A stretch of DNA of 54,579 nt. It comes from Myxococcales bacterium. GTDB lineage: Bacteria; Myxococcota_A; Bradymonadia; Bradymonadales; Bradymonadaceae. Every line of letters begins with the position of its first letter. Position 1 is the stretch's first letter. A model generated the notes under the pieces. That model worked only from the letters and a program-made list of their open reading frames with translations. It did not search any database and was not told the origin of the DNA. The position numbers were made by a program, and so were the translations under genes. Where the stretch lies: NCBI GenBank assembly GCA_026988815.1, contig JALSKP010000431.1:1-54579 (forward strand), read 5' to 3'. Below, piece by piece: positions 14,845 to 54,116 of this stretch.

Positions 14845-16430
14845 TGGAAATCCTGGGGATTTGCGATGAATTACATCATTTAGGTTGGACTCGAAAACAA
14901 ATCCAAAGCGCTTTAAATGTCGGATATCAGAGCATTGATGTCTGGAAAAAACCAAACATAAAAATACAAGGTTCAAATTGAGAGTTCGTCGGTGCAACTG
15001 ATTTCACCCGGCGGTTGGCAAGTAAAAGGCATCAAGTTATCCGATTTGAAAGTCCTGCTTTCATGAATTTCAACACACGAACATCACGTGTATTTGCCTA
15101 TCCAGCACGGGCGGACATGGTGCCCGCGAAGCTAGGGTATTTACGAAAGGGATTCAACGGCCTTTATGGTTGGGTCGAAGACGGGCTCGATGAAAATCCG
15201 CTCTCGGGTGATCTTTTCCTCTTCGTAAACAGAAATCGAAATCGTGCGAAATTTTTACTCTGGGATGGAACTGGGTTGTGTATTTACCAAAAAGGTTTGG
15301 AACGAGGCCGCTTTGCCAAGCTTTGGAAAGACACAAAAAAAAGTGATCTTGAGTCATTCCGCACGTTCCCTTTTTCTTGAGGGGTGCGAACTTATCGGCG
15401 TCCAAAAGCTATCTCCCGATACCTTTATTTTTAGTAAGCAACGTTACTTAACTCTTCGGTAAACGAGACCTTTAGTGTATTCTTTTTCAATGAAAGCTGC
15501 ACTCAAATTCAAAGTTGAAAGCCAGGAAAAACTAGCGATACTGACGACGCTTCAGGGGTGTGAAATTGAAAGACAACACCAAAAAATCGCGAACCTTCGA
15601 AACCAGCTTCGGGAGAGGGACGGGGAAGTTCAGGAAGTATTTTTAGAGGATCCTCCGAAAATAGAAGAGGAAATTATTGCGCCTAGCAAGCTCAAGAAAA
15701 AAACGAAAATCAAAACGCCGAAGAAAGGCCACGGCCCTACAGAACAAGGAAATATAAAGTATATCGACCAGGTTCATCTATTAGATGAGTCAAACGAAAT
15801 CTGTCCGTCTTGCGGTGGGGAACTCGTCGAATGGGATGGGCAATTCGAGGGCGCAGATCTTGTAGACCCTTTGCATGCTCATATTTTAGAAAAGAAGATC
15901 GTCGGAATAGATACCTTCGCCTTCAAGGGCTCTTGGTGGTACACGTACGACAAGTTGGCCAAAACGAATGAAGACCGAGTGCCGCAACTTGTAATGCGGT
16001 AAAAAGCCCGGAACCAAACCGTGGCAGATGTGGTCGCATGCTTTCGATGGTAAAAATGCGTGACGAGTGATGATGGGATTTACCATTCGATTCGTCACGA
16101 TAAAGGACCGCAAACATGCAACGTGATTTTGAAAAACGCATTATGCAGCGCAAAAAATGTGTCGGCGCGAGAAGGTCCAGGCTCAAATTTGCCGGATGTT
16201 GCACCCGAGGGCATAAAGGCTCACGTTTATCGTCGTTTTCGAGAAGCAGCTAAAGATTTCCCGAACGAGGCGGACCCTGTCTTGGAAATGATTTCGGGAT
16301 TATACAAAGCGCGAAGTGAGTCAGATAAAGGCGAATCGAAAGACATTATTGGTAAACTTTTCGCCTATTTATTGGGTCTTGCGAGACGTCCAAAATCAAG
16401 CATTCAAAGTACGATAAACTACGCGTTAAA
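14845..16430 (+). mobile_element. Degenerate IS66-family element (tnpA-like HTH, tnpB, tnpC fragments)
   Basis: ELKLEILGICDELHHLGWTRKQIQSALNVGYQSIDVWKK (HTH); TnpB-like DMVPAKLGYLRKGFNGLYGWV...NPLSGDLFLFVNRNRNRAKFLLWDGTGLCIYQKGLERGRF; TnpC N-terminus with zinc-finger-like CPSCGGEL; later HVYRRFREAAKDFPNEADPVLEMISGLYK. Confidence 0.85.
15063..15380 (+). pseudogene. IS66 family accessory protein TnpB (remnant)
   Basis: NPLSGDLFLFVNRNRNRAKFLLWDGTGLCIYQKGLERGRF matches the IS66 Orf2/TnpB consensus pattern. Confidence 0.85.
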
Positions 16431-36937: not shown

Positions 36938-38228
36938 AGATATTGTCAAATGTTGGGGATCTAATTAATTAAGCGGCATCTCCATTTTTGTAAACTTCAT
37001 TGCTTAATACTTCCTTAACTAAATGTGGTGCGCTGATTTTCCTCCATCGTTTTTCGGCCATGTCCAAGAGCTTAAAAACCATCATCAACGCTTTGATTCG
37101 ACTTCCCTACCCTTTAGTAACCCGTTGATGCAATCGTACCGTCGCAAACGCAGAGCGCGCAGCCTACCCTTGGGGTATTCGATCGCATTTGTACTTTGAA
37201 TATGTTTCCAATGCGCAGCTGGAAAGTCGAAAAAGGCAAATAGTCGGTCGAGGTTTTTAGTAAGGTTGTTTACGGATTTGGGATATTTGTCTTCGTACAT
37301 TTCGTTGAGGTCGTGGATCGATTCTTCAGCATCTTTCTTCGACTCGGGGGCCATGATTTCATGCGCCCTGAAAGAAGTGCCCTCGGGGTGCAACATTTGC
37401 TTGGCTCGAGGCTGACTACGTTTGGGGAGTTTATCCAAAACATTTCCCAATTTGTGCACCCAGCATCGCTGTTGTTGGCCAAACATCTCGGACCGCTAAG
37501 CCCAAAGCTCCGTCTCCGATAGCCAATTTTCGAGGTTCTAAATCGCGTCGTTTTAGGTCGCGTAAAAGGTCTGACCAGCTTTCACTGCTTTCTCGAAACC
37601 GTCCTCGACTGCGATCAACTCTTTGCTTCCATCTTCGCGAGCCCCCATCAACACCAGGGTACAAAGCCTTTCCAAACGAACCCTAAAATAGATACCATCT
37701 GCCCAAATATAGACGAATTGTTTTCCCTCAAATCGTTGGTTCTTAAAGGCAGCATATTCGTCCTTCGAAACCTTAGTGAGACGCGATATCGTGGCACTCG
37801 AGCTTGCTACACCCGTTCCAAACAGCGAAGCTAGACCTTCAGACATGGTGCCTTGAGCCTTTGGCGAAAAGGTAAAAATCACCGGGCGATAAACCACGAA
37901 GATAATACAGGAATAACCTCGGCTACATTTGGCGATTTTCGCACGCTCCGAAGGGAAGTCCCATTGGGGGATGTAGGGAGGAAGGATTTTACTCATAAAG
38001 TTTTCGTGCTCTTTCTCGAACTATATTATTCAAAACGGATCTTACTTCAGTCCGTACTTCTTCTTCGTTTTCTGTCAATCTCAATATGGCGCACGTTTGC
38101 CAAGAGCACTTCAAGGCGAACGTATCCTTCCCGATGACAGTCGGGTGTCATTGTTTAATAGTTATTAAACCTAATGTGCTGCTTTTTTTTGATTTTTCAA
38201 CTGATCCCCAACTTTCAGTAATAACGCT
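36938..38228 (-). mobile_element. IS256-family insertion sequence remnant (frameshifted transposase)
   Basis: QRCWVHKLGNVLDKLPKRSQPRAKQML, HWKHIQSTNAIEYPKGRLRALRLRRYDCINGLL, MMVFKLLDMAEKRWRKISAPHLV, FVYIWADGIYFRVRLE in different frames; candidate terminal inverted repeats sharing GTTGGGGATC at 36938-36967 and 38203-38228. Confidence 0.82.
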
Positions 38229-42517: not shown

Positions 42518-43517
42518 TTACTTTTTTATTTCGATGAGGATTTTACCAAAGTGCTTGCCGCCTTCCATATGTCTAAAGGCATCGATGGCGTTTTCAAAAG
42601 AAAATCGGTCGCTGATAACAGGCCGAATATCGGTTCTTTCAAGATGTGAAATAAGCTCTTTCTTTATGACCCACGATGATGCCTTGGATGCGAATTTGGC
42701 GCATGAGTATGGGAATGAGATTCACCTCGCTTTGCACACCCGATAGAACGCCAATCATGGCAATCGTCCCGCCGACGCAAACGGCCTTTAACGATTGCTC
42801 CAAGGTTCCCGCACCTCCGACTTCAACGACGATATCCACGCCCACACCATTGGTAAGCGTCTTTACTTCTTTTCCCCAGTCTTTGTTGCTCCGATAGTTA
42901 ATAAGTTCATCGGCGCCCAAGGCCTTGAGTCGCTCTAGTTTTTTATCCGAACTTGAGGTCGCAATAACGCGCGCGCCTAAACTTTTGGCAAGTTGAAGGG
43001 CGGCGATTGAAACGCCCCCGCTTCCTTGAACGAGAACACTATCGAGTTTATCTCCGCTTTTTAGCGCTGACCACGCGCTAAGGGTTGCACAGGGCAAGGT
43101 CGACGCTTGGGCCAGGGTCCAGTTTTTCGGGGGTCGCAGAAGGGCGCGTTCTGGTAGGACCATCGATTCGCGAAGCGTGCCATCGAGCGGGCCTCCCAAG
43201 GTTTGGGAAAGTTTTTCTTTCGTCGGAAGTCCCGTTTCGTAGTTGGAAAAAAAACTGGGAATAGCGACATCGCCGACCTTCCACGCTTTCACAGCAGAAC
43301 CGATTTCGATGATCGTTCCGGCAGCGTCCGAACACGGAATGAGGGGTAAGGGCTGGCGAGGATTATAGAGTCCTTTTACCATCAATAGATCTCGAAAATT
43401 TAGTGAAATGGAGTCGATTTCCAACCGAACCTCGTCCTCCCCTAAGGGCAGGCGATCACGTTCTGCGCGTTTCAAATTATTTACTCCAAATTCGCTTTCG
43501 ATCTGATAGATTTGCAT
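42518..43517 (-). pseudogene. Zinc-independent/MDR-family NAD(P)-dependent alcohol dehydrogenase, single frameshift near the C-terminus
   Basis: NLKRAERDRLPLGEDEVRLEIDSISLNFRDLLMVKGLYN, VLVQGSGGVSIAALQLAKSLGARVIATSSSDKKLERLKALGADELINY. Frame 1 stops at GHKERAYFTS*; frame 2 continues EELISHLERTDIRPVISDRFSFENAIDAFRHMEGGKHFGKILIEIKK*. Confidence 0.85.
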
Positions 43518-43554
43518 GATAAACCTGAGTGTCCTGAGAAATTTGGAAATTATC

Positions 43555-44925
43555 ATGAACCCATCCATCCCAAAAGAACCAACGGCCGAAGAGCCACTAA
43601 TTGTTGCCGGCGCCGGTTTGGCGGGCTCCTTGATGGCGCTTTATCTAGCGCGACGGGGTTATTATGTTGATATTTACGAACGCCGTCCCGACTCTCGAGA
43701 TGCCGAATTTCTTGGCGGTCGCAGCATCAACTTGGCCCTGTCGACGCGCGGATTAAACGCGCTTGAGGGCGTGGGCTTAAAGGACAAAATTCTTGAAAAA
43801 TGCATTCCGATGCATGGCCGTTTGATCCATAAAATGAATGGCCAGACGGAGCTTCATCCCTACGGAAAAGAGGGTCAGTTTATCAACTCGGTCGAACGTC
43901 GTCATTTAAATGAGGTATTGATGAACGCCGCTGATGCGCACGACCATGTTAATTTTCACTTCGAAAAAAAGGTTGTTAACGTAGCCTTGGCCGATGGTTC
44001 TCCGATGGTTGAGGACATGCAAAGCGGCGAAATTTCAACGGTAAAAACGCGTTATCTTTTTGGCGCTGATGGTGCTTTTTCGGCGGTTCGAGGCGCACTT
44101 CAAAAAACGGGTCGTTTCAATTATGCGCAAGATTATCTATCGCACGCGTATAAAGAGTTAACGATTCCTGCCGGTCCCGATGGAAGCTGGCTCATGGAAA
44201 AAAACGCTCTTCATATTTGGCCTCGCCATGACTTTATGTTGATAGCCTTACCCAATTTGGATGGCTCATTCACGGTCACTTTGTTTCTTGCTTATGAGGG
44301 TGAGCATAGTTTTTCAAAGTTGCGCAGTGAAGGCGCGGCGATCGCGTTTTTTGATACCTTTTTTAAAGACGCGCTAAAATTGATGCCAAATTTCGAGAAG
44401 GATTTTTTCGACAATCCAAGGGGTGATTTGGTGACGATTAAATGCTCACCTTTTCATTATACAGATCAAGTGCTTTTGATCGGAGACGCGGCGCACGCTG
44501 TGGTTCCTTTTTATGGCCAGGGTATGAATGCCTCTTTTGAAGATTGTTTTTTAGTTGATCGCTTACTCGATTCTCTGGCTCCAGATTGGGGCGAACTTGG
44601 GCGACAGTTTTCCAAAGAGCGCAAAGCCGATGCGCATGCGATTGCAGATTTAGCGATCTACAACTTTTTAGAAATGCGCTCGAAGGTCTCTAATAAGAAT
44701 TTCCTTTTGAAGAAAAAAGTCGACAAGCAATTGCATAAGTGGTTCCCCAAAAAATGGATTCCGCTCTATAGCATGGTCACCTTTTCGAATATTCCTTATG
44801 CTCAAGCGCGCGAGCGAGCGACACGTCAGGATAAAATTCTACGTAAGGCGGGCTGGCTTATTTTCCTTCTTATCGCGTTCTTCTTTTTTAGCGCAATCGT
44901 TTTCGGCCGCACGTTTTTGCTCTAG
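43555..44925 (+). CDS. kmo: Kynurenine 3-monooxygenase with C-terminal transmembrane helix
   Basis: VAGAGLAGSLMALYLARRGYYVDIYERR, GGRSINLALSTRGLNAL, GDAAHAVVPFYGQGMNASFEDC; C-terminal hydrophobic WLIFLLIAFFFFSAIVFGRTFLL. Confidence 0.92.
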   Translation: MNPSIPKEPTAEEPLIVAGAGLAGSLMALYLARRGYYVDIYERRPDSRDAEFLGGRSINLALSTRGLNALEGVGLKDKILEKCIPMHGRLIHKMNGQTELHPYGKEGQFINSVERRHLNEVLMNAADAHDHVNFHFEKKVVNVALADGSPMVEDMQSGEISTVKTRYLFGADGAFSAVRGALQKTGRFNYAQDYLSHAYKELTIPAGPDGSWLMEKNALHIWPRHDFMLIALPNLDGSFTVTLFLAYEGEHSFSKLRSEGAAIAFFDTFFKDALKLMPNFEKDFFDNPRGDLVTIKCSPFHYTDQVLLIGDAAHAVVPFYGQGMNASFEDCFLVDRLLDSLAPDWGELGRQFSKERKADAHAIADLAIYNFLEMRSKVSNKNFLLKKKVDKQLHKWFPKKWIPLYSMVTFSNIPYAQARERATRQDKILRKAGWLIFLLIAFFFFSAIVFGRTFLL

Positions 44926-45022
44926 AACAAACACCCTACGTAAAAAGCACAGGTATTTTAGGCGTTCGCAACTGGGCTACAATTGAATTCGTGTCTCTTT
45001 GGCATTGTAAATATTAGGACGA

Positions 45023-45076
45023 CTTGGCTTTTAAACATCTGAAACAACGAAGGCATATGTCTATTGGTTTCCTTGG
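45023..45076 (-). repeat. Inverted repeat arm (pairs with 49554-49608)
   Basis: Reverse complement ccaaggaaaccaatagacatatgccttcgttgtttcagatgtttaaaagccaag differs from 49554-49608 by 3 mismatches and 1 gap. Confidence 0.95.
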
Positions 45077-45121
45077 TCAGAAATACTTTTTTTTTTCAGA
45101 GCGTGGTTCAAGTGACCAGGA

Positions 45122-47989
45122 TTAGAACTGAGCGGAAAGCCCCAGTGTTGGAATAAAGGGCAAACCCTGGACGGGCCGACTTTCGGTGAAGTCGTAATTA
45201 TATCTTACACCCTCTTCATTGGCTTGATTGTAGACGTTTTGAATATCCAAATAAGCGCCCAAAATCCATGAATCAAAAACGAACTTTTTATCGATGCGTA
45301 AATCGAGTTGATGAAAGGTCGCCGCTCGCTCGGAAAATGGCTGCCCCTGAATGCGTTGATATTCGTTAGCATCGGAATTGAAGACCCCGCCAATAACCGG
45401 CGTTTGTGGATTGCCCGTCGTTAGACGGAATCGAGCCGAGATATCCCAGTTTGCAGGAAGGTTGTATCCAGCGACCAAGGTCAGAATATGAGTTTGATCG
45501 AATTGGTAGGTATCATAATTTCCCGTCAGCGCGTTCAATCTTTCGGACCGACTTAGCGTGTAGGCTAGCCAACCAAAAAAACGATTATGAGGGTAGTGGC
45601 GAATCAACACTTCGCCGCCGTATGCCCGACCCTCACCCTCGCTCACAAAACGCAGCGGCCGAAGCTCGCCGTTCTTTTCAACCTGGCGATCGGTGGGAAC
45701 AATAAGGTCAAACATGTCGCGGTAGAAAAGCGTCACGTCAAATTCCAAATACTCGCTTGGTTTGTACTCCCCACCGATTGCGTACTGCACTGCTTTCTCT
45801 GATAAGACCTCTGGATTTCCAAAGTCTTCCGATTCGCTTCCATCCACCGGAGGTTGTGTAAACAATCCCGCACCGCCCTTAACTGTAAACTTGTCAACTA
45901 AATCCCAACGCAAAGAAAGCCGAGGTGATATTACCGTATCTTTAAGTTGCCCGTAGTGATCGATACGAACACCGGGAACGAGAAGTAGCTTTTTATCAAA
46001 CAAAGAAATTTCGGGTTCAAGATAGGCGGCTGGCATAATGAAACTTGGGGTCTGGGTGGATTGGATCCCATTTTCCCCGAAGTTTGGCGTAGCGTTATTA
46101 CCGCCTTGTTCGTTCTCCGAAAAAGCCGGAATCGAAAATTTGACCTTGGCTTTTCTAAGCGCGTTATCGATTCCCAATCGCAAGCTGACCTCGTCGCTAA
46201 ATTTGATACGCATATCGTCGCGAATTTGAGCGACAATAAAATCGTTTTCAAGGAACAAACTATTTCCCGCATCAAAGGCGGTTTCACTCACGCCAAAGGA
46301 AACCATGAATTTATTCTCGATGGGATAACGCGGATTCCATTCCCACTTAATATTCCCTCGGTGGAAGGAGTTACCAAATTTGACGCCTGTCGCTTCGAAT
46401 TCGCGCGTCCCTTGAGGATCATCTTTTGGAAAAAGAATATCAAGCTTATCATCAGATCCGTAGATCATCAGTTCCAAGGTATGGTCTTGGATGCCCTTAT
46501 AGGTAAGCCATCCTTGGTAATCATAATAGCGCGGGAAGACCGTTATATCGGGACCGTCATCGGGCAAAAGAAGGGGAAGAAAAACGTCAAAATAACTACG
46601 ACGCCCCGAGATCGCGAAACTGAGATCCTCTGTAATGGGGCCTTCCAATAAAACCGATGTATCGAGGATATCGACATCGACCATTCCATGAATGCGATCC
46701 GTTTTTGGAGATCGCGTTGAGAGGTCAATAATCCCCCCCGTCGCACGTCCGAAGTAGGTGCTAAAGTTGCCCGGGAAAAATTCTAAAGAATCGATCATTT
46801 CCGAATTAATCACCGCAGGCCCACCAAGGAAATGGTAGACGAGGGGGATGTCATCGCCATCGATTGAAATTTTAGTATCTTGGGGCGCCGCTCCGCGAAC
46901 AACGATAAGACCGCTCACAAAGGGTGCTCTTGCCACACCCGGTAGATTCTGAACCACACGGACAATATCGTTTCCAGTACCCGGAATACGACGCACTTCT
47001 TCCAACCCAATTTTCCTTCTAGATATTTCTGTGCGTGTCTTCTTCGCCTTCGTTTCGACGGTGTATTCATCGTAGTACTCGGCTTGAATCGAATAAGTGC
47101 CCTCTGTAATTTCGCCTTTTTTTACCTGAATCACCGTCGAGGAGTTAAAATAGCCTTCTGCTTCGAAGGAGACGGTATACTCTCCATTCTCGATTCCGCG
47201 GAACCCAAAGCGACCATCGGATTTGGTAAACCCTTCAACGATTGCTTTCTCAACCCCCTCGGAAAAAAGTTTCACGGTGATGCCAGGCAAAGGTTTTCGC
47301 GTTCCCGATTCCTGCACTCGCCCGACAACATTTACGGCTCTTGCCATGACCTTATAATCGATCTCGGAAACCTTTCCTGCCGGTAATTCCACCTCTGATT
47401 TATAGTCTTGGTATCGCTCCACTCTAACTTCGATGCTGTACGTTCCAGGCGGAATGTTTCCAAATTCAAAGCTTCCATCAGCCGCTGTTTTTGAAGACGC
47501 TTCTGGGAGGGGATCGTAATCACCACCTAAGTATTTGATCTGAACAAATGCATTTACCGCTTTACCGCTCTCTGAGTCGATGACTTTTCCCTTTAAAGTT
47601 GCCGGTAGAATGGGCATCGAAAAATCGATAGTAAACGATAATACTACCGCGGAGGGAATATTGTTAATTTCTGCGGGTTCGAATTCAAACTGCTCTGCGG
47701 CTTTCTTCGCCGACTCATCGAGTCCATGACCCAGTCTTTCTAAGATCTCGACCTTCTCGACTTTTCCGGTCGCAGTGAGGGTCAAACGTAGTTTTACTTT
47801 TCCTTCGATCTTATTGTCAATCGCGTCTTCGGTATATTCTGCTTCGACAGATTTTTTCAGTTTGGGACGTTTAGTAATCCTAACATCTCCTTTTTCTTGA
47901 GCCTGCAAGGATGGGAACTCAAAGGAGGTCGAGAAAAAGGTTAAAAGCACGCATCCAAAGATGAGGGTATTGGAAATCACATTTTTCAT
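45122..47989 (-). CDS. TonB-dependent receptor fused to N-terminal TonB_C and two carboxypeptidase-regulatory-like domains (copy 1)
   Basis: TonB_C: VEAEYTEDAIDNKIEGKVKLRLTLTATGKVEKVEILERLGHGLDESAKKAAEQFEFEPA; CarboxypepD_reg: LKGKVIDSESGKAVNAFVQIKY..., VVGRVQESGTRKPLPGITVKLFSEG; plug RRIPGTGNDIVRVVQNLPGVARAPFVSGLIVVRGAAPQDTKISIDGDDIP; barrel ending LGLSAQF. ATG 47989 overlaps the stop of the upstream gene. Confidence 0.92.
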   Translation of the reverse strand: MKNVISNTLIFGCVLLTFFSTSFEFPSLQAQEKGDVRITKRPKLKKSVEAEYTEDAIDNKIEGKVKLRLTLTATGKVEKVEILERLGHGLDESAKKAAEQFEFEPAEINNIPSAVVLSFTIDFSMPILPATLKGKVIDSESGKAVNAFVQIKYLGGDYDPLPEASSKTAADGSFEFGNIPPGTYSIEVRVERYQDYKSEVELPAGKVSEIDYKVMARAVNVVGRVQESGTRKPLPGITVKLFSEGVEKAIVEGFTKSDGRFGFRGIENGEYTVSFEAEGYFNSSTVIQVKKGEITEGTYSIQAEYYDEYTVETKAKKTRTEISRRKIGLEEVRRIPGTGNDIVRVVQNLPGVARAPFVSGLIVVRGAAPQDTKISIDGDDIPLVYHFLGGPAVINSEMIDSLEFFPGNFSTYFGRATGGIIDLSTRSPKTDRIHGMVDVDILDTSVLLEGPITEDLSFAISGRRSYFDVFLPLLLPDDGPDITVFPRYYDYQGWLTYKGIQDHTLELMIYGSDDKLDILFPKDDPQGTREFEATGVKFGNSFHRGNIKWEWNPRYPIENKFMVSFGVSETAFDAGNSLFLENDFIVAQIRDDMRIKFSDEVSLRLGIDNALRKAKVKFSIPAFSENEQGGNNATPNFGENGIQSTQTPSFIMPAAYLEPEISLFDKKLLLVPGVRIDHYGQLKDTVISPRLSLRWDLVDKFTVKGGAGLFTQPPVDGSESEDFGNPEVLSEKAVQYAIGGEYKPSEYLEFDVTLFYRDMFDLIVPTDRQVEKNGELRPLRFVSEGEGRAYGGEVLIRHYPHNRFFGWLAYTLSRSERLNALTGNYDTYQFDQTHILTLVAGYNLPANWDISARFRLTTGNPQTPVIGGVFNSDANEYQRIQGQPFSERAATFHQLDLRIDKKFVFDSWILGAYLDIQNVYNQANEEGVRYNYDFTESRPVQGLPFIPTLGLSAQF

Positions 47990-49122
47990 TGGGCCACCCC
48001 TGTCGCAAATAAAGAACGCTTTATCCAATCCACACCCAAACGGTTATCGCGAACGACGCTCCAGAGTTCAATCTCACAACCCTCGGTCGGGTCCGAACTT
48101 TTGAGGGCCGGACAACTCTCGATAAAGGCCTCTCCATTGGAAACTTCCTCGGATTGGCTTAAGTCTTTTAGGGGAAAGAAAAGCGTAGTCGAACGCAAAG
48201 CATCGAGATCTGTCGACCCGTCGAAATACAGTTTTCGAGGCGGATCAAATGAACCGAAAGTGGATAACCACTGGAAACCAAGGTTCTCTCTTTTCTCAGC
48301 TAAGAACTCCTCTTTTGACCCCTCAGGCGCGCGAGGAGTGTAAACCTGTATACTATCTTCGTTTATATTCGAATCGACCTCGTAGGAGAGTCCGATAAGA
48401 ACCGGCGTAGATTCACCTTCGGGCAAAACATACCAATCCTTTTCAAAATCCTCAATTTGGGTGACCCAAGTATGTCCCGCGTCAAGCAAGGTCTGTTTAT
48501 CTTTTTTCATGGGACGAATACGAAGCTCGTCGACGCGCGGATTTTCATCTGATTCTTGGTCGGCCCCTAACCAAAGATTCACCCGTTTGGACGCGACATG
48601 CTTTCGACCATTTTCTTCTATGCTCAGACGAATCGAAACCTCATATCCATCCTCGCAATGGACGGTTGGTATATTGACGGCCAGGTCTTCGCCCGCATCT
48701 TGGGCCGCGTTTTGAAGGGACTGGCAAATCGCGTTCAGAAAAACCTGAGGTGCGGGATACTTGAACACTGCCGTTTTTTTATTTCCCAGATCAAAATCCT
48801 CCAAGGGAATGTTGATCTGCGGCCCGTCTTGGGTTGTGTTTTCTGAAATCAGCGCCAGCAATTCCTCTTTGGTTAAAGGGCAGTCAAACTGGTCGACAGC
48901 ATTGGTTCGAAAAGGACACCATTCCCATTTATAGGTTGCCTCTACGCCATCGGGAATGTGAACGAGCGCACTCAGTTCGCTTTCCATATTGGGACGAAGT
49001 TCTGGAGCACTGCTTTTTACCGCCATAATCCTAACTTTATTTACTAAGGCAAAAGGTTCGAAACGATCGCCTTGGCAAGCGCTAATCGTAAACAGGCATA
49101 CGATAAAAAGAAGTGACTTCAT
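47986..49122 (-). CDS. Six-cysteine lipoprotein of unknown function, coupled to TonB receptor (copy 1)
   Basis: MKSLLFIVCLFTISAC lipobox; paralogous to 49635-50771 along its length; ORF in the track starts at 49338, but the lipoprotein signal starts at 49122. Confidence 0.85.
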   Translation of the reverse strand: MKSLLFIVCLFTISACQGDRFEPFALVNKVRIMAVKSSAPELRPNMESELSALVHIPDGVEATYKWEWCPFRTNAVDQFDCPLTKEELLALISENTTQDGPQINIPLEDFDLGNKKTAVFKYPAPQVFLNAICQSLQNAAQDAGEDLAVNIPTVHCEDGYEVSIRLSIEENGRKHVASKRVNLWLGADQESDENPRVDELRIRPMKKDKQTLLDAGHTWVTQIEDFEKDWYVLPEGESTPVLIGLSYEVDSNINEDSIQVYTPRAPEGSKEEFLAEKRENLGFQWLSTFGSFDPPRKLYFDGSTDLDALRSTTLFFPLKDLSQSEEVSNGEAFIESCPALKSSDPTEGCEIELWSVVRDNRLGVDWIKRSLFATGVAQ

Positions 49123-49553
49123 TCTGATTCCTAAATATTTGTAATCGGCGTTTGGAATTGCTTTAGGGATATTAATATACCTGATTACTATTATTAAAAA
49201 GGTAAATCCTTCACCAGACCTGTCTTTAGGCGAATCTGGATAGTGCCTTGTCCTGAACCTGAATGATTGGATGAACCCTTGTCCGGTTATTACCCCTACC
49301 TTTCGAGAAGATGGATCACCGCAGGGCGTGTTTGGCACCCTACGATTTTACGCCCCTAAAATACGTGCTTTTTCTGTAAGGTGCTCATGCAATTCAAGAT
49401 GGTGTGGAACGCCTACGATTTTGCCTTAAAAGAGGTATATATTATTTATTTACAAAGGGGACTCAGGCACGTGACCTGAGGGTTAACACCAGACATCATT
49501 GAATCGTAGGGTCGGCTTTAAATCGCATGGATAAAATTTAATCGTTTTTCCGG

Positions 49554-49608
49554 CCAAGGGAAAACAATAGACATTTGCCTTCGTTGTTTCAGATGTTTAT
49601 AAGCCAAG
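49554..49608 (+). repeat. Inverted repeat arm (pairs with 45023-45076)
   Basis: ccaagggaaaacaatagacatttgccttcgttgtttcagatgtttataagccaag. Confidence 0.95.
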
Positions 49609-49634
49609 GAGTATTATCACTCTAGGCAGTCGGC

Positions 49635-50771
49635 ATGAAATATATTCTTCTAATGGTATTCGTTGTTTTAGCGGGGGCCTGCCAAGGCGAACGTTTTGAA
49701 CCCTTCTCTTTAGTCAATAAAGTTAGAATTTTGGCGGTAAAAAGCAGCTCGCCGGAGCTCTTACCGAACAAGGAAACCGAGCTCAGTGCGCTCGTCTATA
49801 TTCCCGAAGGCGTGAATGCGACCTATAAATGGGAATGGTGCCCCTTTCGTACCAACGCGGTAGATGAATTTAAATGTCCTCTTACCAAAGAAGAACTACT
49901 TGATTTGATCGCAAAAAATGCCCCCGACGATGGACCGATGTTTAACATTCCTTTGGAAGATTTTGACCTGGGGACTGGGGAAAAAGCGACCTTAAAATAT
50001 CCAGCCCCCCAAATATTTCTTCTCGCTATTTGTCAGGGGATTCAAAATGCGGCCAAAGACGCTGGCGAAGATCTTGCGATCAATATTCCTACCATAGATT
50101 GTAAAGATGGTTACGAAATTTCAATTCGTTTGACGATTGAAGAAAAGGGGAAAAAGCACATCGCCTCAAAACGCGTCAATCTATGGTTGGGTTCCCAGCA
50201 AACCCAAGATTTGAATCCTAAGGTGCGCGAAATTCGAATTCGACCGAAGCGTCGAAACAAGCAGATGTTGCTCGATGCGGGGCATGATTGGGTCGCAGAA
50301 ATCGAAGACTTCGAGAAAGACTGGTACGTTCTCCCCGAAGATGAGCCGACGCCGATTTTTCTTGGTGTCTCCTACGAACTTGATTCTTTCATTGATGAAG
50401 AAAGCATCCAAGTTTACGCCCGCCGCGCACCAGAGGGATCGGATTTGGAATTCTTGGAAGCCCAACGCGAAAATATGGAATTTCTCTGGTTGTCTACTTT
50501 TGGTTCTTTGGATCCCGACCGAGAACTTTACTTTAATACATCCACAGATCTTGAAGAACGTCGCGTGACCAAATTGTTTTTCCCCGTAAAAGATCTTTCT
50601 CAATCCGCGGAGGTTTCAAACGGCGAACGCTTCATTGATAATTGTCCAGAGGTTAAAAACGCAGACCCAAACGACGGTTGCGAGATTGAACTCTGGAGCG
50701 TCGTTCGCGACGATCGCTTGGGCGTGGATTGGAAAAGGCGAACCTTATTCGCGACGGGGGTAGCACCATGA
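49635..50771 (+). CDS. Six-cysteine lipoprotein of unknown function, coupled to TonB receptor (copy 2)
   Basis: MKYILLMVFVVLAGAC lipobox; close paralogue of copy 1. Confidence 0.88.
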   Translation: MKYILLMVFVVLAGACQGERFEPFSLVNKVRILAVKSSSPELLPNKETELSALVYIPEGVNATYKWEWCPFRTNAVDEFKCPLTKEELLDLIAKNAPDDGPMFNIPLEDFDLGTGEKATLKYPAPQIFLLAICQGIQNAAKDAGEDLAINIPTIDCKDGYEISIRLTIEEKGKKHIASKRVNLWLGSQQTQDLNPKVREIRIRPKRRNKQMLLDAGHDWVAEIEDFEKDWYVLPEDEPTPIFLGVSYELDSFIDEESIQVYARRAPEGSDLEFLEAQRENMEFLWLSTFGSLDPDRELYFNTSTDLEERRVTKLFFPVKDLSQSAEVSNGERFIDNCPEVKNADPNDGCEIELWSVVRDDRLGVDWKRRTLFATGVAP

Positions 50772-53662
50772 ATCCTCTTGTAGTATCTCGTCGGCTTGTC
50801 CCGATTCTCATTGCGCTTTTCCTTGTGTCGATTCTTGTACCGACTTTACTTCCCAGTCCTCTGATGGCGCAGGAAAAAAAGAAGGAGAAAGGAGACGTGA
50901 GGATCACCAAACGTCCTAAACTAAAAACATCCGTGGAAGCCGAATACACCGATGATGCGATCAAAAATAAAATCGAAGGAAAGGTCAAACTTCGGCTTAC
51001 GATTAGCGCCCTTGGCAAGGTCGAAAAGGTAGAAATTTTAGAACGGCTCGGGCACGGACTTGATGAGTCCGCAAAAAAGGCAGCCGAACAATTTGTTTTC
51101 GAACCAGCCGAAATTAACAATATTCCTTCCGCTGTTGTGCTCTCTTTTACGATCGATTTTTCGATGCCGATTTTGCCCGCAACCTTGAAAGGGAAAGTCA
51201 TAGATTCACAAAGCGGCAAACCAGTGGGTGCCTTTATTCAGATTAAATATTTGGGATCCGATTATGATCCGGTGCCCGAGGCCTCGTCTAAAACGGATGT
51301 TGACGGCACTTTTGAATTCGGAAATATCCCTCCCGGAAAATACAGTATCGATGTGAAAGTTGAGCGCTATCAAGATTTTAAGTCCGAGGTCGATTTGCCT
51401 GGCGGAAAGGTTTCAGAAATCGATTATAAGGTCATGGCAAGAGCGGTTAACCTTGTCGGCGCAGTACAGGAATCGGGAACACGAAAGCCTCTTGCTGGCG
51501 TGACGGTGAGGCTTTTTTCCGAAGGGATTGAGGAAGCTGTAGCTGAAGGATTTACAACAGCGGACGGTCGTTTCGGATTTCGCGGCGTTAAAAGCGGCGA
51601 GTATACGATAGCCTTTGAGGCAGAAGGCTACTTTAATTCCTCGACTCTTATAAAAGTGAATGATGGCGAAATCGCCGGTGGTACCTATTCTATTCAGGCT
51701 CAATATTATGATGAATATAGGGTTGAGACCAAAGCCAAGAAAACGCATACGGAGATTTCCAGAAGAAAGATCGGACTCGAAGAAGTGCGAAGAATTCCGG
51801 GCACGGGAAACGATATTGTTCGCGTGGTTCAAAACCTACCTGGGGTCGCCAGAGCTCCTTTTGTGAGTGGTCTTATTGTCGTTCGCGGTGCGGCACCGCA
51901 AGATACGAAAATTTCAATTGATGGCGATAATATTCCGCTAGTTTACCATTTTTTGGGAGGCCCGGCGGTGATCAATTCGGAAATGATCGATTCCTTGGAA
52001 TTTTTCCCAGGCAATTTTAGCACTTATTACGGACGCGCGACGGGCGGAATTATCGACCTTTCTACGCGATCTCCTAAAACGGACCGTATTCACGGTATGG
52101 TGGATGTCGATCTTCTTGATGCCTCCGTTTTGGTAGAAGGTCCGATCAACGATGATTTTAGTTTCGCATTATCCGGGCGTCGTAGTTATTTTGACGTGTT
52201 CTTGCCCCTGCTTCTTCCCGATGATGGTCCCGATATTACTGTCTTTCCGAGGTACTACGATTATCAGGGATGGTTCACGTATAAGGGAATCGAGGATCAT
52301 ACGCTTGAGCTGATGGTGTACGGTTCTGATGATAAACTCGATCTTCTTTTTCCAAAAGATGATCCTCAAGGAACACGCGAGTTCGAAGTGCCCGGAATTA
52401 ATTTTGGCAACTCTTTTCTACGCGGAAACTTTAAGTGGGAATGGGATCCACGATATCCAATCGAAAACAAATTTATGATTTCTTACGGTATCAATCAAAC
52501 AGCTTTCGATGCCGGAAATAGTTTGTTTTTTGAAAATGATTTTCTCCTCGCCCAGATTCGAAACGATACGCGAATCAAAGTATCTGAGGAAGTGACGGTT
52601 CGTTTAGGTGTGGACAATGCGTTCGGGAGCGCCAAGGTGCGCTTTTCAATTCCCGCATTTTCAGAGGCCGAGCAAGGACGAGGAAACGCATCGCCGCCTA
52701 ACTTTGGCGAAAATGGAATCGATCTTGAGGTGAAGCAGACCTTCCTGATGCCGGCCGCTTATATTGAACCAGAAATTTCTTTATTTGAAAAAAAGTTACT
52801 TCTCGTTCCCGGGATTCGAGTGGATCATTATGGCCAGCTCGCCGACACGGTGGTGTCACCACGTTTTTCTTTTCGTTGGGATTTCGTAGACAAGTTTACT
52901 GCTAAAGGGGGGGTAGGTTTGTTCACCCAATTCCCGCTTGGTGGAAGTGAAACTGAAGAATTTGGAAACCCTGATGTCTTATCCGAAAAAGCGATTCAGT
53001 ACGCTTTGGGGACCGAATACAAGCCAAGCGAATATTTGGAATTTGATCTGACTTTATTCTACCGCGATATGTTTGATCTCGTCGTTCCAACGGACCGACA
53101 GGTTGAAGTCAACGGCAAGCTTCGTCCGCTGCGTTTTGTGAGTGAAGGAGAAGGTCGCGCGTACGGCGCCGAAGTTTTGATTCGTCATTATCCTCATCGT
53201 CGTTTTTTCGGATGGCTTGCCTATACCTTGAGTCGTTCAGAAAGATTAAATGCGCTGACTGGAAATTTCGATACATACCAATTTGATCAAACCCACATTT
53301 TAACTTTGGTCGGCGGATACAATCTTCCCGCGAATTGGGATATTTCGGCGCGTTTTCGACTGACCACAGGCAACCCTCAAACACCCGTTATTGGCGGCGT
53401 ATTCAACTCCGATGCAAGTCGATACCAGCGTGTCCAAGGTGAGCCTTTCTCAGAACGCGCGGCGACCTTTCATCAATTGGATTTACGTGTTGATAAGAAG
53501 TTCGTTTTTGATTCTTGGATTCTCGGTGCCTACCTGGATGTCCAGAACGTGTACAATCAGGTTAACGAGGAAGGGATTCGATATAATTATGACTTCACCG
53601 AAAGTCAGCCTGTTCAAGGCTTGCCTCTCCTTCCTACAATTGGGCTTTCCGCTCAGTTCTAA
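50768..53662 (+). CDS. TonB-dependent receptor fused to N-terminal TonB_C and two carboxypeptidase-regulatory-like domains (copy 2)
   Basis: Same domain order as copy 1; MNPLVVSRRLVPILIALFLVSILVPTLLPSPLMAQE signal; ATGA overlap with the upstream lipoprotein gene. Confidence 0.92.
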   Translation: MNPLVVSRRLVPILIALFLVSILVPTLLPSPLMAQEKKKEKGDVRITKRPKLKTSVEAEYTDDAIKNKIEGKVKLRLTISALGKVEKVEILERLGHGLDESAKKAAEQFVFEPAEINNIPSAVVLSFTIDFSMPILPATLKGKVIDSQSGKPVGAFIQIKYLGSDYDPVPEASSKTDVDGTFEFGNIPPGKYSIDVKVERYQDFKSEVDLPGGKVSEIDYKVMARAVNLVGAVQESGTRKPLAGVTVRLFSEGIEEAVAEGFTTADGRFGFRGVKSGEYTIAFEAEGYFNSSTLIKVNDGEIAGGTYSIQAQYYDEYRVETKAKKTHTEISRRKIGLEEVRRIPGTGNDIVRVVQNLPGVARAPFVSGLIVVRGAAPQDTKISIDGDNIPLVYHFLGGPAVINSEMIDSLEFFPGNFSTYYGRATGGIIDLSTRSPKTDRIHGMVDVDLLDASVLVEGPINDDFSFALSGRRSYFDVFLPLLLPDDGPDITVFPRYYDYQGWFTYKGIEDHTLELMVYGSDDKLDLLFPKDDPQGTREFEVPGINFGNSFLRGNFKWEWDPRYPIENKFMISYGINQTAFDAGNSLFFENDFLLAQIRNDTRIKVSEEVTVRLGVDNAFGSAKVRFSIPAFSEAEQGRGNASPPNFGENGIDLEVKQTFLMPAAYIEPEISLFEKKLLLVPGIRVDHYGQLADTVVSPRFSFRWDFVDKFTAKGGVGLFTQFPLGGSETEEFGNPDVLSEKAIQYALGTEYKPSEYLEFDLTLFYRDMFDLVVPTDRQVEVNGKLRPLRFVSEGEGRAYGAEVLIRHYPHRRFFGWLAYTLSRSERLNALTGNFDTYQFDQTHILTLVGGYNLPANWDISARFRLTTGNPQTPVIGGVFNSDASRYQRVQGEPFSERAATFHQLDLRVDKKFVFDSWILGAYLDVQNVYNQVNEEGIRYNYDFTESQPVQGLPLLPTIGLSAQF

Positions 53663-53711
53663 ATTGTAAAATTTTAAAATTTGTATAGCTTCCCATGTCG
53701 GAAATATCTGA

Positions 53712-54075
53712 CGCTAAAGATTCGGTTCTGGATACGATCGCTAGCGTTTTACGTTAGAGGAAAGTCCGGGCATCACAGGGTAAGAATGGTCGATAACGTC
53801 GACCGGAGGCAACTCTAGGGAAAGTGCCACAGAAAGGTAAACCGCCTCGTTTTTCTTAGGGAGACCGAGGTAAGGGTGAAAAGGTAAGGTAAGAGCTTAC
53901 CGGGATATTGGGTGACCATGTCCGCTTGGTAAACCCCATTCGATGCAAGGTGAACAGGAAGAGAGTACCCGCTCGTTGATTCCGGGTAACCGCTTGAACC
54001 TATCGGCAACGGTAGGTCTAGATGAATGATCGTAGAAAAACAGGACCCGGCTTACGAGGGACCGAATCTTTAGCG
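53712..54075 (+). ncRNA. rnpB: RNase P RNA, bacterial class A-like
   Basis: Conserved AGAGGAAAGTCCGGGC, GCCACAGAAA, GTGAAAAGGT, AACAGGACCCGGCTTA; P1 cgctaaagattcggt/accgaatctttagcg is a perfect 15-bp helix. Confidence 0.95.
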
Positions 54076-54116
54076 CTCGATATTGCGCTTGAAGGGCTCA
54101 CACGAGGGGCCGATTG

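Follow-up and report, generated by a model that had tools for sequence, protein, structure and literature searches.

An old, divergently arranged pair of lipoprotein–TonB-dependent receptor operons in a Bradymonadaceae genome, possibly reordered by a later inversion

In Bacteroidota, pairs formed by an outer-membrane receptor and a surface lipoprotein, such as SusCD and BtuB-BtuG (PDB 8bmx), are encoded with the lipoprotein gene adjoining that of the TonB-dependent transporter. MxcH-type receptors, described by the NCBIfam model NF038079, carry an N-terminal TonB C-terminal-like domain before the plug and barrel. At the level of DNA rearrangement, DNA duplication associated with inversion (DDAI) has been documented in bacteria (PMC8963470, PMC4671568), among them Helicobacter pylori and Thermus, and is marked by inverted copies of the breakpoint at the ends of the inverted segment. 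Here, we analyzed a locus with likenesses to each of these systems, located in a window of 54,579 nucleotides (the whole stretch of DNA analyzed) from a member of the Bradymonadaceae whose genome assembly has 903 contigs and is 88% complete. The order Bradymonadales is rich in predators, and a single lineage within it appears to have doubled an outer-membrane uptake unit that is otherwise single-copy.

The locus consists of two complete operons arranged head to head. Operon A (45122–49122, minus strand) contains the lipoprotein gene lipA (47986..49122, −), encoding a 378-aa protein with a lipobox Cys16 and a conserved Cys pattern, followed by tbdtA (45122..47989, −), encoding a 955-aa TonB-dependent receptor with an N-terminal TonB_C domain, two CarboxypepD_reg-like domains, a plug, and a barrel. 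Operon B (49635–53662, plus strand) contains their paralogues in the same order, lipB (49635..50771, +; 378 aa, 70% identical) and tbdtB (50768..53662, +; 964 aa, 83% identical). The lipoprotein and receptor genes overlap by ATGA in both operons, and the divergent centre between them (49123..49634) spans 512 bp. This layout, with its gene order and overlaps, had been described in a first-pass annotation of the sequence, and the open reading frames and their positions confirmed it. When the inverted arms of the two operons were aligned, they matched over 1096, 1811 and 921 bp at 70-78% identity, far above chance. Position 45023, where that annotation had placed the start of the duplicated region, instead marks one end of a distinct inverted repeat of 61-65 bp that lies outside the operon-to-operon alignment.

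We then considered which protein families the two operons encode. TonB_C, CarboxypepD_reg-like, and plug domains were present in both receptors. Pfam family PF07715 matched both, while PF00593 matched TbdtA, and the barrel of TbdtB was recognized by structure: its AlphaFold model (mean pLDDT 78, pTM 0.63) has 22 predicted strands and, in a structure comparison, matched PirA, FusA, and BtuB-type receptors including 8bmx. Pfam and the 22-strand model of TbdtB together provide the plug and beta-barrel that define a TonB-dependent receptor. LipA had no Pfam or NCBIfam match, and the conserved lipoprotein family is in this sense Pfam-less. Its members have conserved cysteines, and the model of LipB (mean pLDDT 82) consists of Ig-like beta-sandwich domains. 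A sequence search of the PDB with the lipoprotein returned matches at chance level only, and comparison of the lipoprotein model with solved structures gave TM scores of 0.13-0.21 (by query length), too weak for naming a relative.

These features separate the locus from the described systems that it most resembles. The receptors scored 69 and 66 bits against NF038079, far under its cut-off of 925, and are therefore not MxcH, the myxochelin receptor. The match was limited to the N-terminal domain, and unlike MxcH-type receptors, TbdtA and TbdtB have two CarboxypepD_reg-like domains and a preceding lipoprotein gene. Assignment to the SusCD systems was also rejected, as the partner there is a SusD-like helical/TPR lipoprotein, whereas the lipoprotein here has no Pfam match and is predicted to be an Ig-like beta-sandwich. 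The probable product of each operon is a single outer-membrane uptake complex. In such a complex, the lipid-anchored Ig-like lipoprotein, putatively coupled to the receptor at translation, would be the partner of a 22-stranded TonB-dependent transporter, which would carry its additional TonB C-terminal-like domain on the periplasmic side. We infer the transport role from the families concerned: the partner is lipid-anchored and has conserved cysteines, and the barrel is of the TonB-dependent kind. The translational coupling and the lipoprotein–receptor complex are likewise presumed.

To describe how far the copies have diverged, we used codon alignments, in which the lipoproteins share 69% of nucleotides and 70% of amino acids, and the receptors 75% and 83%, respectively. 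By model-based region, receptor identity was 98% in the plug, 82% in the barrel strands and periplasmic turns, and 85% in the extracellular loops; an initial description of plug and barrel as almost invariant thus holds for the plug but not for the barrel. Among the main receptor regions, the signal peptide, already recognized as differing between the copies, and the second CarboxypepD_reg-like domain have diverged most, with differences at 69% (18 of 26 aligned positions) and 27%, respectively. For lipoproteins and receptors alike, pN was far under pS, and the near-invariance of the plug reflects purifying selection.

The first-pass annotation had proposed that the pair is either maintained by gene conversion or made up of specialized paralogues. 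Conversion would fit the high protein identity of the plug and the exact runs shared between copies, which reach 29 nt. However, fourfold-site identity between A and B was 0.36–0.40, only slightly above the 0.27–0.28 expected for independent sequences, and plug windows with 95-97% protein identity were just 29–45% identical at fourfold sites. Sliding-window, fourfold-site, and exact-run analyses revealed no tract of raised synonymous identity along either gene, and we consider it highly improbable that conversion keeps the copies alike. Using the AlphaFold model of TbdtB, with loop boundaries taken from predicted strands and hence approximate, we found differences at 25 of 169 loop positions (15%) compared to 64 of 353 positions in strands and turns (18%; p=0.39). 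Because the differences are not concentrated in the predicted extracellular loops, substrate specialization is unsupported. Neither copy was accelerated at family-conserved sites, each having 25 deviations in the receptor and 6 in the lipoprotein, and there is therefore no sign that one of them is decaying. The 200-bp regions upstream of lipA and lipB had no meaningful similarity, so the two operons may be regulated differently.

Next, we examined copy number in 20 genus and family relatives. One lipoprotein gene was present in 19 of the 20, three single-contig genomes among them, compared to two in the source genome (G000). The two lipoprotein matches in G015 fall within one open frame and were counted as one gene, and the search of G009 gave no match. 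Receptor searches agreed with a single copy in the relatives: G009 and G014 gave no match, and in G010 and G020 the second receptor match is a fragment located on a different contig, which supplies the portion of the receptor that was lacking. The adjacency of lipoprotein and receptor genes is kept in named Myxococcota and Deltaproteobacteria contigs. Judged by these sequences, the pair is a conserved unit of the Bradymonadales that is recognizable in other Myxococcota, and the combination of a Pfam-less lipoprotein family with TonB_C-fused receptors across the phylum makes a reasonable target for study.

In the receptor tree, A and B are sisters (support 99/99), with the single copy of the congener G001 outside. 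Grouping operon A with G001 was rejected (AU p 0.0007), as was grouping operon B with G001, less strongly (p 0.034). Relative to G001, the receptors of A and B have 91 states in common, compared to 65 and 46 for the alternative pairings, and neither copy is nearer to a different species' gene than to the other. The lipoprotein tree alone, from a shorter alignment, does not settle how A, B, and G001 branch. Because the copies are sisters with the congener outside and their synonymous sites are near saturation, the duplication is lineage-specific but old, dating from around the time when G001 branched off or later. The single lipoprotein gene in relatives and the receptor tree thus support the earlier view of a paralogue pair kept after a lineage-specific duplication. 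A duplication before that split, followed by loss of one copy in G001, is compatible with the lipoprotein tree and with the milder rejection of operon B plus G001; a second copy may also be missing from the G001 data, since that assembly is only 84% complete. This alternative is unlikely given the 99/99 support for A plus B and the fourfold identity between them, which exceeds that of either copy to G001 (0.27–0.33).

A short repeat beside the operons suggested how the head-to-head order may have arisen. This 65-bp repeat, I4, has exactly two copies in the genome. The left copy (45023..45086, −) is located 35 bp past the end of tbdtA and is inverted relative to the right copy (49544..49608, +), which lies 26 bp upstream of lipB, so that the two bracket operon A, one downstream of A and one upstream of B. 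They are identical in 57-58 of 65 columns (89%), and their alignment score is 93, while none of 1000 simulated sequences scored above 28. The right copy folds into two hairpins (z −3.2), while in the left copy the predicted hairpins are lost (z −0.6), consistent with the left copy being a relic. Since the longest exact run common to both is 24 nt, assembly error is unlikely to have produced this arrangement. If I4 has evolved neutrally, its 89% identity makes it look far younger than the duplication of the genes, although functional constraint could invalidate it as a clock. A promoter was also sought in I4, but the scan gave one weak site, fewer than in shuffled sequences.

From the position of I4, we infer a tandem ancestor and an inversion. 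A single ancestral lipoprotein–TonB receptor unit doubled in this lineage, around or after the time when it parted from its nearest congener, and purifying selection has since kept both copies intact. The pair would have stood in direct tandem, lipA–tbdtA–I4–lipB–tbdtB, until the first unit, operon A, inverted, and a staggered or copied breakpoint would have left the lipB leader (I4) duplicated past the 3' end of tbdtA. Inversion of a tandem pair with its breakpoint copied would yield exactly the observed I4 arrangement, whereas a simple inverted duplication would not. As in DDAI, inverted breakpoint copies lie at the ends of an apparently inverted segment; the evidence for the event here is one 65-bp repeat in one genome. 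Tandem order was found in no relative, no genus or family relative among the genomes compared has two copies, and G001 has its one operon elsewhere. We assign a probability of roughly 0.55 to the reading as a whole, that is, an old duplication, selection on both copies, a role as uptake complexes, and a later, apparently younger inversion of operon A from a tandem pair.

The orientation of an 8.5-kb inverted duplication, as first described, was confirmed, while its mechanism is called into question by the position of I4, which follows operon A but precedes operon B. If the operon had been copied directly head-to-head, with I4 an unrelated repeat, the orientation and order of both operons would follow, but a two-copy inverted repeat located 3' of A and 5' of B would need a separate event. 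The dissimilar upstream regions of lipA and lipB also count against direct copying, though neutral DNA that old would have decayed anyway. We therefore regard this alternative as possible but doubtful. Inverted, 89% identical repeats bracketing operon A could also suggest an active switch, in which I4 flips the 4.5-kb operon and alternates divergent and tandem order together with expression of the receptor pairs. Such a switch is very unlikely, as the longest exact run is just 24 nt, the repeats have diverged, with the left one lacking a fold, and no site-specific recombinase family was found among the window proteins scanned; we saw no evidence of reversible switching. Apart from the scar of the favored inversion, the locus is an unremarkable case of an old gene duplication maintained by selection, with little to surprise a specialist.

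A weaker inverted match, I5, has its left copy (44932..44965, −) directly after kmo and its right copy (49350..49383, +) in the divergent centre. We considered I5 as a second breakpoint but downgraded it because a decayed dispersed repeat adjoins or overlaps the right copy, which may belong to that family and is ambiguous. The dispersed repeat is intergenic, up to about 100 bp long with a core near ATGACATCATGCATTTCAAGATGGTGCGTGG, and occurs at 15 places in this genome, among them window positions 49385-49412 (decayed, operon centre) and contigs C38, C193, C899, C811, C724, C164 and others. It was absent from G001 at E<=0.1.

The surroundings of the operons also differ between genomes. The window interval 44926-54113, between kmo and a TPR gene, contains both operons and RNase P, while the corresponding interval in the congener (L099, 5783-8220) contains GNAT and PolX genes; the best PolX match of the source genome is on contig C899. 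Given this difference in content, one of the two lineages has remodelled the interval. Synteny was set aside as a means of placing the ancestral operon, as neighbours differ between genera. A bacterial RNase P class A RNA (window 53721-54070) lies 58 bp after tbdtB; in G001 it has an unrelated location, separate from the operon. A zinc-binding-dehydrogenase-like gene (window 42527-43568) has an apparent frameshift near 42659 compared to the 333-aa protein of G001 and appears to be a pseudogene or an assembly error. Window positions 37085-37996 and 15015-15380 hold remnants of a Mutator-family transposase and an IS66 TnpB-like gene.
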